From contig CALVSQ010000012.1 in assembly GCA_944359085.1 (NCBI GenBank), positions 1-32,852 of the forward strand: a DNA stretch of 32,852 nt, read 5' to 3'. A program made the position numbers and the translations under genes. The notes under the pieces are model-generated. The model was not told the DNA's origin. It made no database searches and was given only the letters and a program-made list of their open reading frames with translations. This document shows positions 1,738-23,663 of the stretch, in pieces. Origin of the DNA: an uncultured Bacilli bacterium. Its GTDB lineage: Bacteria; Bacillota_I; Bacilli_A; RF39; UBA660. The stretch's first letter is position 1. Each line of letters opens with the position of its first letter.

Positions 1738-1761
1738 TTATTTATAATAGGAGAGATGATT

Positions 1762-3474
1762 ATGGGAAATTTAAAAAATTACAAAACCTTTGGTTTTACA
1801 CTTATTGAGTTATTAGCAGTAATTATAATTTTAGCTATAGTAGCATTAATCGCAACACCAATCGTATTAGATATAATAGATGATGCAAGAATATCAGCAG
1901 GCAAGTCAGAAGCAAATATGATATTGAGTGGAATAAATAATTATTGTGCTAGTGAAGATATGAAATATCAATTAGATAATAATTATGAAAGAATATGTAT
2001 ATCAAGTATGGATAAAGATGATGTACCAACAATGGTAAATTTAGGAAATGCGACAATAGATAAAATTACATATAATGGATCTAAATTAACTGAATTAGTA
2101 ATAACAAGTAATAATCATAAATTTACATTATGTCCAAGTGGCACATTTGCAATGGATGATGAAAAATGCGATGATGAAGTAGCACAATCAGGAAATTTAA
2201 TATCAACATTATTAGAACAATATCAAGAAGGAGAAACAACAGGATTAGTAAAAGATACAACAAATCCAAATTTGTATTATTACACAGGAACAAATGAAGA
2301 AGTAGCAAATAATTTCTTATGGTATGGAGGCCATCAATGGCGAGTATTAGAATTTGATACTGCAGAAAAAACATTAACTTTGATTACTCAACAGCCATTA
2401 ACAGCAATCCGACCAGCTAGTGCAGCATGGACAACAAAAGATGCATATGAATCAAGTTATATCAATACATGGTTAAAAGATTATTTTTTGAACAGATTAG
2501 ATAATAGTATTCAAAGCAATATTTTGTATAGTACATTTAATGTAGGAATATATACAGATGTTGATGAAATTACAACAAATCAAAAAGTAGGATTATTGGA
2601 TAATGGTCAATATATAAGAGCAGGAGAGGCTGGTTCATATTTAGATATAAAAGATAATTTTTGGTTAGGAAATAGGTATAGTTCATCTGACATTAGTTAT
2701 GTTAGTGAAAATGGTGTTAGTTACATTGGTCCTTGGAGGGCTCATGGAGTTCGTCCAGTTATAAAAATTTCTGATATAACCATCATAGGTGATGGTACTC
2801 TTACTAATAGTTATCATACTGAAAACAAAGCAAGCAATACAAATGAAGTCCAAGTAGGAGAATATATTAATGTGCCATATAGTGGAAGTGATAGTGCTTG
2901 TGGAAGTGATAATATGTGTACGTTTAGAGTGATAAATAAAGACGGTGATAGTATCAAAGTAGTACTAAATGGCTTGCTTTCAACAACAAGTCAATGGGCA
3001 GATAATGTAAGTGATAACATAACAACAGGTGATTTGATATATACGAATGTATTAGATAACTTTATTGAAAATATTGATAGTAAATATATAACAACAGGAA
3101 CATATGGAGTGGGAATTTATGATGGCACAAATAGTTATACAGTACCACAAAGTACAACGATAACTGCTAATATAGGATTACCAACAGTTGGTGAGATGTT
3201 CAGTGGAAATGATATAGATTTAAGTACATCAAATTCAAAAACATTTGTAGATGTAAACACAATAGAAAATCCAATTGACACAGGTGGCTATTGGACAATG
3301 AATAGATTAGGTTCATCTTATGTTCGCTATGTATACGGCTTTGGCATTCTTGGTGACATTAGGCATTCAGATATGATTGGCGTTCGCACAGTAATATATT
3401 TGAAGTCAGGGGTTTCAGCCATAAATTTCTCATCTGGAGAAGGAACTGCGCAATCACCATATGTGTTAGAATAA
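1762..3474 (+). CDS. Prepilin-like surface protein with two repeated GVRPVI-ending domains
   Basis: The N-terminus is a type IV prepilin signal: short basic leader, then G11 before F12 of FTLIELLAVIIILAIV, with Glu at +5. A prepilin peptidase should cut there and leave an N-methylated Phe on a membrane helix. The start at 1762 is preferred because AGGAG (1749-1753) is 8 bases away; the ATG at 1756 is too close. At 570 residues it is far longer than a major pilin. After the stalk come two related domains, each ending in G-V-R-P/T-V-I-K/Y-I/L (about residues 332-338 and 540-546). Both contain a short segment (residues 305-328 and 516-539) where similarity to the paralogue at 21918 collapses. 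The rest of the two proteins aligns closely (NNFLWYGGHQWRV, TLTLITQQPL, CGSDN, TFVD.NTIENP). The likely role is a minor pilin or adhesin exposed on the wall; the ligand is unknown. No pilus assembly genes are in the window. Confidence 0.8.
   Translation: MGNLKNYKTFGFTLIELLAVIIILAIVALIATPIVLDIIDDARISAGKSEANMILSGINNYCASEDMKYQLDNNYERICISSMDKDDVPTMVNLGNATIDKITYNGSKLTELVITSNNHKFTLCPSGTFAMDDEKCDDEVAQSGNLISTLLEQYQEGETTGLVKDTTNPNLYYYTGTNEEVANNFLWYGGHQWRVLEFDTAEKTLTLITQQPLTAIRPASAAWTTKDAYESSYINTWLKDYFLNRLDNSIQSNILYSTFNVGIYTDVDEITTNQKVGLLDNGQYIRAGEAGSYLDIKDNFWLGNRYSSSDISYVSENGVSYIGPWRAHGVRPVIKISDITIIGDGTLTNSYHTENKASNTNEVQVGEYINVPYSGSDSACGSDNMCTFRVINKDGDSIKVVLNGLLSTTSQWADNVSDNITTGDLIYTNVLDNFIENIDSKYITTGTYGVGIYDGTNSYTVPQSTTITANIGLPTVGEMFSGNDIDLSTSNSKTFVDVNTIENPIDTGGYWTMNRLGSSYVRYVYGFGILGDIRHSDMIGVRTVIYLKSGVSAINFSSGEGTAQSPYVLE
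2674..2745 (+). other. Divergent segment 1 of the first prepilin-like gene
   Basis: This segment lies between the conserved FWLGN and GVRPVI codons. Most codons here end in T or C, and it reads richer in G and C than the flanking A-ending codons. The matching segment in the paralogue (22836-22910) differs at most positions and is one codon longer. Confidence 0.6.
3307..3378 (+). other. Divergent segment 2 of the first prepilin-like gene
   Basis: This segment lies between W-T-M-N-R and G-V-R-T-V-I. Codons such as CGC, GGC, TAC, GAC and CAT are common here though rare around it. The matching paralogue segment is 23487-23576 and is six codons longer. Confidence 0.6.
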
Positions 3475-7884: not shown

Positions 7885-8451
7885 TTATAGCAGTTTGCTT
7901 GTAATTTCGTATTTGCAAGCATCAGTTCCTATCATAAAGGTCATATTGTAAGCTTGACTAAAATCAAAATCAGCAGGAATACTTAATACGTTATCTACAA
8001 ATGTTATACCTTTTGGTAGGATAGATGTTGAAGTTACAGTTACTTTTGGATCAGTTTCAAAAATAATATCAGTAGCTAATTTTGTACCTGTAAATAAATA
8101 TGTATTATTTTCTTCTTCAACAATTTTTCCAGCTTCTGGATTAGATAAAGTTAAATTTAAAATAGAAGTAACACAAGGACATGTATCGCATATACAATTA
8201 TTGAATAGTTCAAGTTTTCCTTGTAAAACAGTTTCTAGACGAGTGATTGAATTAACCATGGATTTTACGGAATCATTAACTTTTAATAATTCATCAGTTG
8301 TCTTAGCTGTTTTTAAAGCGGCTTGAATTTTTTCGCCTTCAGCATTTAAAATGTGTGATAAACCAGTTTGTTGTAGGGCAACAGATTCAATTATATCGGT
8401 TACAGATTCACATCTTTTAACACCACTAGGCTTAATTATTGGCATTGACAT
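7885..8451 (-). CDS. Protein with shared ILN helical domain and a beta-rich C-terminus
   Basis: The start is at 8451 because GGTGGTGAT lies just upstream; an in-frame ATG at 8469 would place the ribosome site inside the gene. The 188 residues contain a helical domain (about 24-85) with LSHILNAEGEKIQAAL, LLKVNDSV and LETVLQGKLELFN, then a Cys cluster (CICDTCPC, about 87-94), then a beta-rich domain ending DACKYEITSKLL. I recall similar ILNAEGEKIQ segments in clostridial proteins, some linked to spores, but I cannot name a family. There is no signal peptide. The divergent neighbour at 8556 ends in the same helical domain, so the two products may assemble together. Base composition is less AT-extreme than the neighbour. 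Confidence 0.7.
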   Translation of the reverse strand: MSMPIIKPSGVKRCESVTDIIESVALQQTGLSHILNAEGEKIQAALKTAKTTDELLKVNDSVKSMVNSITRLETVLQGKLELFNNCICDTCPCVTSILNLTLSNPEAGKIVEEENNTYLFTGTKLATDIIFETDPKVTVTSTSILPKGITFVDNVLSIPADFDFSQAYNMTFMIGTDACKYEITSKLL

Positions 8452-8555
8452 TTTATCACCACCTTTCAATTTATGTTATGTTAAAAAAAATTTTTTGAAA
8501 GGGTATTTATAACAAAATATTTTTAATTACATATAGTAATTAATAGGTGGGTAAA

Positions 8556-9320
8556 ATGTTTAAATTAATAAAAAAAATACCTTTAGAATATGATGGTATT
8601 TGTTATTATAAAGAAAATTATTTATTATTAAAAGATAATGTAATTGATTTTTATGATAATGATTTTAACAAAATAAAAAAAATAAAATTAGATAATAAAT
8701 TTAATTATATAACATGTAATAATGAATATATATTTTTAGCTAACGATAAAGAAATTTATAAATATGGCTTTGATAATTTAATTAAATTAGATATAAATTT
8801 AGATATTATAAATATAAGTTATATTGATAGTTTAATCATTATAACTAAAGATAAGATATATTCATATAATGATAAATTAAATGAATATTTGGATATTAAA
8901 TGTTCAAATATATTTAATATAAATGATAAAATATATTATATAAAAGAAAATGAATTATATGAAAAAAATAAAATACAATGTTTTGATTTTAAAATAAAAG
9001 ATTGTTGTTATAATAATTGCTTAGTTTTATTATCAAATTGTATATACATATATAATATTGATTGTTATGATAAAATATCAAAATTGTTAAAATGTTTGTG
9101 TAAAAATGAAAGCATTCCTAATTCAATAGCTTGTATTGAAAAAGCATTAGCGAACATTTTAAATGAAGAAGCTAATAAAATAAAAAAAGCAATTTGTTTA
9201 TCTAATAATATTTGTGATTTAATTAAAATTAATGAATCGGTTAATCAGACAATTAAAAATATTATTTTATTAGAACAGGTTTTATGTTCAAAATTAGATA
9301 TATACAATAGTAAAAAATAA
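8556..9320 (+). CDS. Propeller-like repeat protein ending in the shared ILN helical domain
   Basis: The start is ATG 8556, five bases after AGGTGG (8545-8550); a GTG at 8547 is inside that site. The first 185 residues are a chain of short beta units with recurring Tyr, Asp, Asn and Ile (for example YIFLANDKEIYKYG, KIYSYNDKLNEYLDI, KIYYIKENELYEKN), which looks like a small beta-propeller. The last 65 residues repeat the helical domain of the divergent gene: LANILNEEANKIKKAI, LIKINESV, LEQVLCSKLDIYN. Six or more Cys lie between about residues 148 and 188 (CCYNNC, CLC). There is no signal peptide. Function is unknown; a structural or surface-layer partner of the product of 7885-8451 is a reasonable guess. 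Confidence 0.7.
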   Translation: MFKLIKKIPLEYDGICYYKENYLLLKDNVIDFYDNDFNKIKKIKLDNKFNYITCNNEYIFLANDKEIYKYGFDNLIKLDINLDIINISYIDSLIIITKDKIYSYNDKLNEYLDIKCSNIFNINDKIYYIKENELYEKNKIQCFDFKIKDCCYNNCLVLLSNCIYIYNIDCYDKISKLLKCLCKNESIPNSIACIEKALANILNEEANKIKKAICLSNNICDLIKINESVNQTIKNIILLEQVLCSKLDIYNSKK

Positions 9321-9378: not shown

Positions 9379-10236
9379 ATGAAAACAGATAGAAACATAT
9401 TAATAGCATTTATTTTAAATATAAGTTTTTCATTATTAGAAATAATAGGCGGTTTTATAACTAATAGTATTTCTATTTTATCGGGAGCAGTTCATGATTT
9501 AGCAGATGCTGCAAGTATTGGAATATCCTATTTTTTAGAAAAAAAGAGCAAACATAGACCTAATTATAAATATACTTATGGTTATGTTAGATATTCTATT
9601 TTAGCTGCTTTTATAACTACTATAATTTTACTTTGTGGTTCATTATTAGTAATATATAATGCTACAAATAGATTGTTTAATCCCATTGATATTGATTATG
9701 ATGGCATGATTATAATAGCTTTAATTGGTATTTTATTTAACATTATAGCTGTACATAAAACTAAAGGCGGACATTCTTTAAATCAAGAAGCCGTGAATTT
9801 ACACTTATTACAAGATGTTTTAAGTTGGATAGTTGTTTTGATAGGTTCAATATTAATTAAATTTACTAAGATAAATTATATTGATTCTATAATGAGTTTT
9901 ATTATTTCAATTTACATAATAATTCATGCTTTAAAGCATTTAAAAATAGTATTAGATTTATTTTTAGAAAAAACACCAGATAATATAAATATCAGAAAAA
10001 TAAAAAAAGAATTATTAGAAAATAAAAATATAGTAAGTATTAATCATATTCATATTTGGAGTATGGATGGATATAATAATTATGCTACTTTACATGCTAT
10101 TATTAATAATGATGAAGTAGAAAAGATAGAAGAATATATTAAAGAATATTTAAAAAAAGAAAATATTAGTCATACGACTATTGAAATAGAAAGGAAAAAA
10201 TATGGAAAAAGTTTATTTTACAAAAGAAATAAGTAG
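9379..10236 (+). CDS. Cation diffusion facilitator (metal efflux) transporter
   Basis: A 285-residue inner membrane antiporter of the CDF family, exporting a divalent metal in exchange for protons. Six helices are visible. The metal site is HDLAD in helix 2 (H39, D40, D43) and HLLQD in helix 5, an HD/HD arrangement typical of zinc-type members. The cytoplasmic C-terminal domain (about 205-275) carries INHIHIWSMDGYNNYATLHA, the usual dimer and metal-sensing fold. The last 35 bases overlap the next gene (10202), so the DUF362 gene is probably translationally coupled. Metal preference is inferred from the motif only. Confidence 0.9.
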   Translation: MKTDRNILIAFILNISFSLLEIIGGFITNSISILSGAVHDLADAASIGISYFLEKKSKHRPNYKYTYGYVRYSILAAFITTIILLCGSLLVIYNATNRLFNPIDIDYDGMIIIALIGILFNIIAVHKTKGGHSLNQEAVNLHLLQDVLSWIVVLIGSILIKFTKINYIDSIMSFIISIYIIIHALKHLKIVLDLFLEKTPDNINIRKIKKELLENKNIVSINHIHIWSMDGYNNYATLHAIINNDEVEKIEEYIKEYLKKENISHTTIEIERKKYGKSLFYKRNK

Positions 10237-10576
10237 TGAAAGTTTAATTAAAATATATGAAAAGTTAGATTGTAAATTAGGAGGAAGGGTAGCTGTTAAA
10301 ATTTCAACAGGTGAAGCAGGAAATAATCATTATTTAAAACCTAGTTTGATTAATGATTTGATAAATAAATTAAATGGTACAATTGTTGAATGTAATACAG
10401 CTTACGAAGGAAAAAGAAATACAACTAAAGATCATTTGCAAACCATTAAAGAACATGGATTTATTAATGTTGATTTATTGGATATTGATGGAGATAAATC
10501 GATTCCGGTTGTAGGTGGTAGACATTTAAAAGAAAACTATGTAGGAAAAAAATTGATAACTATGATTCAATGTTGA
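10202..10576 (+). CDS. DUF362-type protein, N-terminal half (split gene)
   Basis: This is the first part of a DUF362 (PF04015-like) protein: VYFTKEISSE, GGRVAVKISTGE, LVG-type strand IVECNTAYEGKRNTT, and VVGGRHLKENYVGK. It stops at TGA 10574 just after an A7 run. The second half continues in the -1 frame, and the junction reads smoothly as ENYVGKKIDNYDSMLMLSHF if the frame shifts at the run, so both halves were one gene of about 282 codons. The function of the family is poorly known; members often accompany iron-sulfur enzymes. The gene begins inside the end of the CDF gene. It is either a recent frameshift, a sequencing slip in a homopolymer, or programmed -1 frameshifting. Confidence 0.75.
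   Translation: MEKVYFTKEISSESLIKIYEKLDCKLGGRVAVKISTGEAGNNHYLKPSLINDLINKLNGTIVECNTAYEGKRNTTKDHLQTIKEHGFINVDLLDIDGDKSIPVVGGRHLKENYVGKKLITMIQC
10546..10552 (+). other. A7 run at the DUF362 frame change; fits a -1 slippery heptamer
   Basis: In the zero frame the codons are GGA AAA AAA TTG, so A_AAA_AAA fits the X_XXY_YYZ rule. Slipping back one base makes the next codons ATT GAT AAC TAT GAT TCA and then ATG 10570, which is the frame of the second half. Confidence 0.7.
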
Positions 10577-11052
10577 TGTTATCACATTTTAAAGGACATC
10601 CAATGGGTGGCTTTGGTGGAGCATTAAAAAATATGTCAATCGGTTTAGCTTCATCTAGAGGCAAAGCTTGGATTCATAGCGGTGGAGTAGAAAGAGATAA
10701 TATTTGGGCAACACCACAAGTTGATTTTATTGAATCAATGGCTGAAGCTGACAAGTCAGTAGTAGATTATTTTAAAAATATAGTTTATATTAATGTTGTT
10801 AATAATATATCAGTTGATTGTGATTGTGTAGCTGATCCAGAAGCGCCTTGTATGAAAGATATTGGAATACTTGCTTCATTAGATCCTGTCGCATTAGATC
10901 AAGCATGTTTAGATTTAATTTACAACTCTGATGATCCAGGGAAAGAACACTTTATTGAAAGAGTAGAATCAAGAAAAGGAAAAATCATTTTAGACCATGC
11001 TGAAGAATTGGGTATTGGTAGTAAAAAATATCAATTAATTAATATAGATTAA
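10570..11052 (+). CDS. DUF362-type protein, C-terminal half (split gene)
   Basis: This frame holds the conserved middle and end of the family: LSHFKGHPMGGFGGALKN, SIGLASSRGK, and the Cys-containing region DCDCVADPEAPCMKDIG followed by LASLDPVALDQACLDLI. In full-length relatives the segment after VGK leads straight into a strand like NYDSMLMLSHFKGH, as it does here once the frame is corrected at 10552. No ribosome site precedes the first ATG at 10570, which argues against independent translation. The clean reading frame of 160 codons, with normal codon use and no further damage, suggests either very recent inactivation or real frameshift expression. Confidence 0.75.
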   Translation: MLMLSHFKGHPMGGFGGALKNMSIGLASSRGKAWIHSGGVERDNIWATPQVDFIESMAEADKSVVDYFKNIVYINVVNNISVDCDCVADPEAPCMKDIGILASLDPVALDQACLDLIYNSDDPGKEHFIERVESRKGKIILDHAEELGIGSKKYQLINID

Positions 11053-21834: not shown

Positions 21835-21859
21835 ATTAGATGAAAATCTAATTTTTTTT
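21835..21859 (+). terminator. Terminator after mraY
   Basis: ATTAGAT (21835-21841), loop GAAA, ATCTAAT (21846-21852), then T. It separates murE-mraY from the embedded prepilin gene. Confidence 0.85.
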
Positions 21860-21860
21860 A

Positions 21861-21889
21861 TTGACTGATATAATAAAAAATTGTATAAT
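21861..21889 (+). promoter_or_regulatory. Promoter of the second prepilin-like gene
   Basis: TTGACT (21861-21866), 17 bases, TATAAT (21884-21889). RNA would start near 21896; AGGAGTT (21904-21910) is the ribosome site for ATG 21918. Confidence 0.8.
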
Positions 21890-21917
21890 TTAAGTATAAG
21901 AATAGGAGTTAGATAGT

Positions 21918-23663
21918 ATGAATAAAATAGCAAATAGCAAAAATGGGGGGGGGTATTTACAAAATAATGCTTTTACCTTAACGGAATTAATTGGTGTAGT
22001 AATTATATTAGGTATAATATCTTTACTAGCATTCCCACCAATATTAAATGCGATAAGAAGTACCAAAGGTAAAATAAGTGATGCTAGTAAAGAAATACTT
22101 TATAATGCAGTAGGACTTTATGTTAGTGACAACATCAATAATTATCCCAAATATAATGGAAATAAATATTGTGTAACTGTAAATGAATTAATTAAAGGAG
22201 AATACTTACCAACAACAGTATATGATTCAGTAACAGGAAATGAAATACCACAAGATAGTAAAATTGAAATAAATATAGAGAATGATATTTATAGTTACAA
22301 TTTAAATAATGAATGTAAAGAATATTATAAATATGGCCCATTAATAAAGGTTTTATTAGGGCAATATAATGAATCAAATACAAATGGATTAGTAAAAGAC
22401 ACAACAAGTGAAAATATATATTATTATAAAGGAACTAATGGAGAAGTAAGTAATAACTTTTTATGGTATGGAGGACATCAATGGCGAGTAATAGAATTTG
22501 ATATAGAGAAAAATACATTGACATTGATAACACAGCAACCTTTAGTTTTGATTCAACCAGCAAGTAGTGTATGGACTACAGAAAAAGAATATAATGAAAG
22601 TTATTTAAATCAATGGTTAAATGAATATTTTTGGAATAGTTTAGATAATAGTATACAAAATAACATAGTGGATAATACATTTAATGTTGGTATATATGGT
22701 GAAACAATATCAGAACAAAATGTTGAAAAAATAAAAACAGTAAAAAAAGTAGGATTATTGGATACAAAACAATATTTAAGAGCAGGAGAACTAGATTCAT
22801 TTTTAGATATTAAAGATGAGTTTTGGTTAGGAAATTTGTATAATTCTTCTCAAATTCGTCGTGTTGGCAGTGGAGGAACTATATATATGGGTGATTTAAC
22901 TTTTTTTGCTGGAATTCGCCCAGTTATAAAAATATCAGATATAATTGTTAATAATGGAGATGGAAATCTAACTTCAAGCTATAATAATAGTGATAAAGCA
23001 AATGATACTAGTGAAATACAAGTTGGTGAATATATAAGTGTTCCATATAATGGTAATGATAATGCCTGTGGTAGTGATAATAAGTGTTTATTTAGGGTAG
23101 TAAGTAAAGACAATGACAGTATAAAAGTAATATTAAATGGTTTATTACCAAATCCAAGTTTTTATGGTGAGACACCAAAAATAACAACAAATCATACTAT
23201 ATATACTCCTCTTAATAATTTTGCTAACAATATAAGTAATAATTATAGATATACGGGTAATAAAAATTTTTATATCTGGTATTATCCTTATTCAACAAGT
23301 GAAAGTGGAAATTACAAAGATGTTCAAAAAGAAATTTTATCTGCCAATGTCGGATTACCAACTATGGGAGAAATGTTTACGTGTAACGATATTGATATAA
23401 CTAATGATGGGGTAAATAAAACCTTTGTTGATATTAACACTATAGAAAATCCTGAAGCCTATAATGGATTATGGGTTATGAATAGATATGTATCTACTAG
23501 TGTTAGTGTTGGAGTAATTCATTCAGCAGGAGCTTTAGGAAGTTATCCAGTTTCACCTTCGCATAATTACAAAGCCGGTGTTCGCCCAGTAATATTTCTA
23601 AAAAATAATTTAAAAATTATAGCGGGAGATGGAACAGCTCAAAATCCTTATACATTAAAATAA
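21918..23663 (+). CDS. Prepilin-like surface protein with a G9 tract near the start codon
   Basis: A 581-residue paralogue of the product of 1762-3474. The prepilin signal is leader SKNGGGYLQNNA (cut after A18), then FTLTELIGVVIILGIISLL with Glu at +5. The leader contains nine G in a row (GGG GGG GGG, residues 10-12). One extra G gives a stop after 16 codons, one fewer gives a stop after 20 codons, both before the membrane helix, so expression should depend on tract length. Two repeated domains follow, each ending G-I/V-R-P-V-I; the divergent segments are about residues 307-331 and 524-553. The gene has its own promoter and terminator and sits between mraY and murG. The role is probably a pilus-like adhesin; no ligand can be assigned. 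Confidence 0.8.
   Translation: MNKIANSKNGGGYLQNNAFTLTELIGVVIILGIISLLAFPPILNAIRSTKGKISDASKEILYNAVGLYVSDNINNYPKYNGNKYCVTVNELIKGEYLPTTVYDSVTGNEIPQDSKIEINIENDIYSYNLNNECKEYYKYGPLIKVLLGQYNESNTNGLVKDTTSENIYYYKGTNGEVSNNFLWYGGHQWRVIEFDIEKNTLTLITQQPLVLIQPASSVWTTEKEYNESYLNQWLNEYFWNSLDNSIQNNIVDNTFNVGIYGETISEQNVEKIKTVKKVGLLDTKQYLRAGELDSFLDIKDEFWLGNLYNSSQIRRVGSGGTIYMGDLTFFAGIRPVIKISDIIVNNGDGNLTSSYNNSDKANDTSEIQVGEYISVPYNGNDNACGSDNKCLFRVVSKDNDSIKVILNGLLPNPSFYGETPKITTNHTIYTPLNNFANNISNNYRYTGNKNFYIWYYPYSTSESGNYKDVQKEILSANVGLPTMGEMFTCNDIDITNDGVNKTFVDINTIENPEAYNGLWVMNRYVSTSVSVGVIHSAGALGSYPVSPSHNYKAGVRPVIFLKNNLKIIAGDGTAQNPYTLK
21945..21953 (+). repeat. Poly-G tract (G9), candidate phase-variation switch
   Basis: Nine consecutive G in codons 10-12 of the prepilin-like gene; no other run of this kind is seen in this AT-rich window. 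Replication slippage in such tracts causes reversible on/off switching in many surface-antigen genes. Confidence 0.85.
22836..22910 (+). other. Divergent segment 1 of the second prepilin-like gene
   Basis: It lies between FWLGN and G-I-R-P-V-I. Arg codons CGT CGT, plus GGC and repeated TTT, appear here, and most codons end in T or C. It differs from 2674-2745 at most positions. Confidence 0.6.
23487..23576 (+). other. Divergent segment 2 of the second prepilin-like gene
   Basis: It lies between W-V-M-N-R and G-V-R-P-V-I. It is six codons longer than the matching segment in the first gene, with no clear alignment between them. Confidence 0.6.

Follow-up and report, generated by a model that had tools for sequence, protein, structure and literature searches.

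Can a run of nine guanines in the leader of a surface-protein gene act as an on/off switch, and does such a switch concern one gene or many? The question is raised by a gene at 21918..23663 (+ strand) of a 32,852-nucleotide stretch of DNA from an uncultured Bacilli bacterium, referred to here as the window. The gene encodes a prepilin-like surface protein of 581 residues (an open reading frame call with a Pfam DUF6273 match), and the G9 tract at 21945..21953 (+), a proposed slippage element, occupies codons 10–12 of this frame and keeps it open at its present length (ON). Our best explanation, in which we have considerable confidence, is that the tract acts as a phase-variable poly-G switch and belongs to an exchangeable leader module, which is borne by lectin-like pilins and also by other anchored surface proteins. 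When the tract of a module gene happens to gain or lose a G, that gene is probably turned on or off, which would give one population mixed surfaces.

The tract lies exactly where the original prediction had placed it, in codons 10–12 of a prepilin-like gene, and the DNA described there as about three quarters A+T has a computed A+T content of 76.4% (G+C 23.6%). It is the single run of nine Gs in the window; the second-longest G run has five (one such), and no C run exceeds four. Runs of at least seven Gs are confined to the tract site (three overlapping matches), a count equalled in none of 100 dinucleotide shuffles. One criterion for a switch of this type, at least 7–8 Gs in the 5' part of an open reading frame at a length above chance, is met, as is a second, that a one-unit change toggles the gene between full length and an early stop. 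When the tract length was altered in silico, G6, G9 and G12 left an open frame of 580–582 residues, G7, G10 and G13 led to a stop at 15–17 residues, and G8, G11 and G14 to a stop at 20–22, each of these stops falling ahead of the membrane helix. The simulation reproduces the earlier translation by hand, in which G10 stops after 16 codons and G8 after 20, both before the helix, and agrees that one length class in three is ON, with G6, G9 and G12 alone open among G6–G14.

The N-terminus of the encoded protein, MNKIANSKNGGGYLQNNA|FTLTELIGVVIILGIISLLAF, reads as a leader of the class III type with a pilin helix after it. The leader MNKIANSKNGGGYLQNNA extends over 21918..21971 (+), as far as the point where prepilin peptidase is predicted to cut (A|FTLTE), as read from the translation and an alignment with relatives, the cleavage itself being inferred from the motif; the FTLTE motif and the hydrophobic pilin helix follow at 21972..22049 (+; from sequence and alignment, with an approximate 3' limit). 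The class III criteria are met (NNA|FTLTELIGVVIILGIISLLAF, with G/A at −1, F at +1, E at +5 and a hydrophobic helix). The match to the pseudopilin GspG is weak and below cut-off, and a curated N-terminal methylation (prepilin) model places the window protein below and a paralogue at 1756–3474 above its cut-off; we call the window protein 'prepilin-like' because this curated model is not over cut-off. The Pfam and NCBIfam matches listed for the protein include no PilC/PilY1 family. Its DUF6273 match covers residues 217–278 (22566..22751, +; Pfam), and DUF6273-like domains have been modelled in other proteins as a C-type lectin fold (PMC10743442). An AlphaFold model of the window protein was too poor for use (mean pLDDT 46). 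Judged by homology, a prepilin peptidase and a PilC homologue, the latter encoded by a nearby PilC/T2SSF gene, are present in the same genome, and both were found in all 18 of the 18 genus genomes examined.

The gene is flanked by mraY-like and murG-like open reading frames, named from their translations alone. An A+T-rich stem-loop followed by T8 (21835..21859, +), read from the sequence, is a possible terminator of the mraY-like gene and was missed by a terminator scan, which requires G+C. The promoter-like TTGACT-17-TATAAT at 21861..21889 (+) agrees with consensus at 11 of 12 positions and is suggestive only, the total of promoter-like sites in the region not being above that of shuffles. 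A Shine-Dalgarno AGGAG (21904..21908, +), seen in the sequence, is common to the module copies described below. Elsewhere in the window, the overlapping frames 10202–10576 and 10570–11052 (10202–11052 together) look like a single protein of iron-sulphur type interrupted by a frameshift, with no homopolymer seen at the break, and the neighbouring frames 7885–8469 (−) and 8547–9320 (+) have a common motif, LNAEGEKIQAALKTA / LNEEANKIKKAI, and no Pfam match.

The idea of two prepilin genes, one of them with the tract, proved too narrow. The tract-less paralogue reported at 1762 does exist (open reading frame 1756..3474, +; 49% identical, from the frame call, Pfam and alignment), but to call the window gene the 'second' of a pair is incorrect: 27 places in the genome proved related to the window protein in a protein search, and the poly-G module is present in four genes. 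For a 1.1-Mb genome, 27 prepilin-like places are unusually many, and several have variable stretches in their DUF6273-like parts. Tracts of at least eight Gs number exactly four in the 1.13-Mb genome, with about 0.2 expected from base composition, and all four lie within a common 5' module, AGGAG...ATGAATAAAATAGCAAATAGCAAAAAT-Gn-[T/C]ATTTACAAAATAA. Reckoned from the first ATG, the window gene (9) is ON, two other prepilin-like genes (10 and 13) are OFF, and so is a fourth copy (G10), which is found on a different anchored protein (KGFAISGIIYSILILFLLLVF...). In the three prepilin copies, the 40-nt upstream flanks are 100% identical and the 200-nt downstream flanks are 95–97% identical and gap-free; despite these near-identical flanks, their tracts measure 9, 10 and 13. 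The G13 copy stays at 95–97% to the others over ~330 nt and then drops to ~50%, an abrupt loss of similarity which suggests that the 5' module has been exchanged by recombination; in this comparison the row of a relative, G008, stood in the wrong orientation and was left out of account. Each of the genome's only two G7 runs (L021 1501–1507 and L033 1501–1507) lies a short way ahead of the start of another gene, close to the expected position of a ribosome site.

Counting states from the first ATG would be misleading if a second ATG, which abuts the tract (21943..21945, +) and is in the pilin frame only if n = 1 mod 3, could also start translation. The module would then have two productive frames, one opened at the first ATG when n = 0 mod 3 and the other at the tract-abutting ATG when n = 1 mod 3 (M-GGG-HLQNNA|FTLTE), and G10 and G13 would be weakly ON. 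This reading gains from the presence of the abutting ATG in all four genome copies and from the lengths of the three non-G9 copies, all n = 1 mod 3. However, the second ATG is without a Shine-Dalgarno and is not conserved, many copies in the genus having CTG in its place, and G11 copies would be served by neither start; we regard a second productive frame as unlikely.

Related sequences supply the length variation that a switch would require. Within the genus, the leader pattern matches ~30 places in 8 of 18 genomes (reversed control, 0), with tract lengths of 9–14, bar one interrupted tract; every length is an assembly consensus, and the ON/OFF states of 36 loci were tabulated by hand. Of these loci, 11 are in frame from the module start codon (11/36; p = 0.86 against one third), and long downstream frames are kept in most OFF copies with enough contig. 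Between the OFF orthologues L041 (genome G003) and L002 (window genome), 97% identical in protein, 21 changes are synonymous and 17 non-synonymous (dN/dS 0.22, p = 5e-6); by this measure the gene, which is OFF in both assemblies, is under purifying selection. The signal is not universal, as dN/dS is near 1 in pairs with more divergent C-terminal parts (L002/L010).

One module gene (L049/L128 and L125) occurs in two independent metagenome assemblies from different members of the genus, JAGHHZ010000015.1 (G003) and CALVSM010000070.1 (G007). Over 738 bp, the two copies are separated by a pair of upstream substitutions and a single indel, the tract length itself, G10 (OFF) versus G9 (ON), with 639 nt of the open reading frame identical. 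Their surroundings, named from translations, comprise ribosomal protein, rpoA and transposase-like genes in one and serS-, murI- and mutM-like genes in the other, so the gene appears to have moved between genomes; these differing contexts, with a transposase-like neighbour in one genome, suggest recent horizontal transfer. At the window gene's own site, beside the mraY-like gene, the prepilin of two relatives (G015 and G008) lacks a G tract altogether, while most relatives show no prepilin, implying that the switch there was gained or lost recently. A further criterion, that lengths differ across near-identical copies or strains, is met by relatives and paralogues, not by the window locus across strains. 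The claim that tract length switches the frame is supported by these related sequences (9/10/13 in paralogues, 11/36 ON, G10 versus G9), and the proposed count of lengths in related assemblies did return differing lengths, including the G10 versus G9 of one shared gene, at the level of assembly consensus.

Beyond the genus, a generic pattern (G8 then FTLxE) had matching genomes among 291 of the family (14) and among 385 of an order draw (14), with reversed controls at 0; a class draw of 395 genomes, with 24 other families represented, contained none. Being exact, the pattern overlooks variants, the FTLTE of the window gene among them, and these counts are therefore lower bounds. Leaders across the family are often of the form (T/A)NSKx-GGG, and the tract keeps its place in the leaders across genera despite leader divergence. 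Viral contigs gave no match to the genus module and two matches to the generic pattern. Tracts of at least eight Gs number 49 in one family genome (G151) and 53 in another (G185); many of those read belong to the leaders of further anchored surface proteins and others lie elsewhere, and some of the anchored proteins have weak DUF6273 or Ig-like matches. In both genomes the anchored proteins whose leaders bear these tracts, mostly G9 and out of frame in a single register, are paralogous (L141–L143, L250–L259, L270–L289; L153–L155, L260–L269, L290–L309). What was predicted as a switch at one gene is supported by the relatives, but that gene is only a fragment of what is found, a module repeated within the genome and, across the family, on several protein families.

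A length fixed at nine, named in the original prediction as the refuting case, is absent in the genus (9–14); in G151 and G185, however, G9 is close to fixation, with the copies OFF. Almost all readable module copies of G151 are G9 and OFF, its few 'ON' calls being contig-end fragments, and G185 has 32 G9-OFF copies, four G8-ON and one G9-ON. This near-uniform out-of-frame G9 counts against our explanation and is not predicted by simple random switching alone. The excess may reflect a mutational equilibrium, selection for rare expression or RNA-level rescue, and is undecided among the three. Campylobacter tracts peak at 9 and 10 (PMC6321876).

Rescue of this kind could go further and replace switching altogether. 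Were RNA polymerase or the ribosome to slip on the tract, OFF copies would make some full-length protein, and the tract would be a constant low-level device for programmed correction, with no heritable switch. The uniformity just described, nearly all readable copies in G151 and 32 in G185 at G9 in one out-of-frame register with long downstream frames, fits such a device, and out-of-frame genes of Buchnera are rescued by transcriptional slippage at homopolymers (PMC2831843). A fixed programmed site, however, has no need of the genus lengths of 9–14 in all three frames, and a G9 mode arises from mutation alone in Campylobacter (53% G9, 26% G10; PMC6321876); we consider constant correction quite improbable. 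The tract could also be neutral and hypermutable, drifting in length without a switching role while out-of-frame copies decay, as the ON fraction of a random one third and the short downstream frames of some copies would allow. Purifying selection in OFF orthologues, the leader position held across genera despite leader divergence and the location of all four long tracts of the genome in the module speak against neutrality, which was already disfavoured and which we find very hard to sustain. Least credible is that the lengths are assembly or sequencing errors: the assemblies are consensus only, many at ~7x coverage, and annotated G-tract lengths can be wrong (PMC9187656), but copies within one genome lie up to four Gs apart between clean, indel-free flanks and the tract recurs across many independent assemblies. 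Loss of MutS was considered separately as a cause of slippage and rejected: a MutS_V domain was found in the window genome and in 15 of 18 genus genomes, so lost mismatch repair is not the explanation.

Under the phase-variable leader module that we favor, the poly-G run would gain or lose Gs during replication, in keeping with tracts of at least eight Gs that switch Campylobacter genes (PMC6321876). When n is a multiple of three, the leader would be in frame and the prepilin-like protein with its C-lectin-like domains would be made; at any other n, translation would yield a peptide of 15–22 residues that ends ahead of the membrane helix. The module, comprising the ribosome site, the leader, the tract and often the pilin N-terminal region, would be placed on different surface genes by recombination and horizontal transfer, so that each cell would carry several independent switches. 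The tract, its frame logic, the sharing of the module, length variation on conserved flanks, intact OFF copies under selection and the genes for a prepilin peptidase and a PilC homologue can be read, as far as assembled DNA allows, from the sequences compared here; slippage within a clone and ON/OFF expression are inferred only, as are display on the cell surface, adhesion and any selection for diverse surfaces.

Poly-G switching itself is already known, from Neisseria pilC, Campylobacter and the sortase pili of Bifidobacterium, and the proposed module switch on Bacilli prepilin leaders would be a new form of it. Neisseria pilC1/pilC2 encode a type IV pilus tip adhesin with a coding poly-G (G9–20 in a phasome survey), and a one-base change truncates the protein, giving ON/OFF states as proposed here (PMC5231331, PMC5953494). 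PilC is, however, another protein of a proteobacterium, encoded by one or two genes that have no module in common with other surface genes, whereas the present tract is in class III prepilin-like leaders of Bacilli. In the Gram-positive gut commensal Bifidobacterium breve, a G tract separates two frames of the pilin genes bbr_0113 and bbr_1889; replication slippage was demonstrated there by deep sequencing, and enrichment of the ON length was measured in mice (PMC9187656). Those few loci encode Sec/LPXTG sortase pilins with the tract between the signal and LPXTG parts, whereas here a common leader stands on type IV-like prepilins and also on other anchored proteins. The Campylobacter phasome is similar in its many poly-G tracts per genome, with a mode of 9–10 and mostly surface genes (PMC6321876), but its tracts occupy unrelated gene positions, whereas the window system reuses one 5' leader module. 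Tentaclins and other DUF6273 proteins have the same DUF6273 region, modelled there as a C-type lectin fold, but tentaclins are phage receptor-binding proteins varied by diversity-generating retroelements (PMC10743442). Our view of the literature is partial and limited to open-licence papers, among which we found no poly-G in class III prepilin leaders of Bacilli, no poly-G leader reused across surface protein families and no link of RF39 with phase variation.

Taken further, these observations could describe a portable leader/poly-G module that has spread by recombination and horizontal transfer to unrelated anchored, partly lectin-like genes, giving small-genome Bacilli a combinatorial repertoire of four to about fifty switches, with some genera parking nearly all copies one G out of frame for rare-cell expression or RNA-level rescue; this wider proposal is tentative, and we do not hold it as the probable outcome. 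If our best explanation is right, a large uncultured family of small-genome Bacilli would have a poly-G phasome comparable to the one in Campylobacter, with a single leader reused for several families of surface proteins. Automatic annotation may, as a warning, call many intact surface genes of these bacteria truncated or mis-started. The module would also allow surface diversity to be read from sequence in bacteria known here from metagenomes only.
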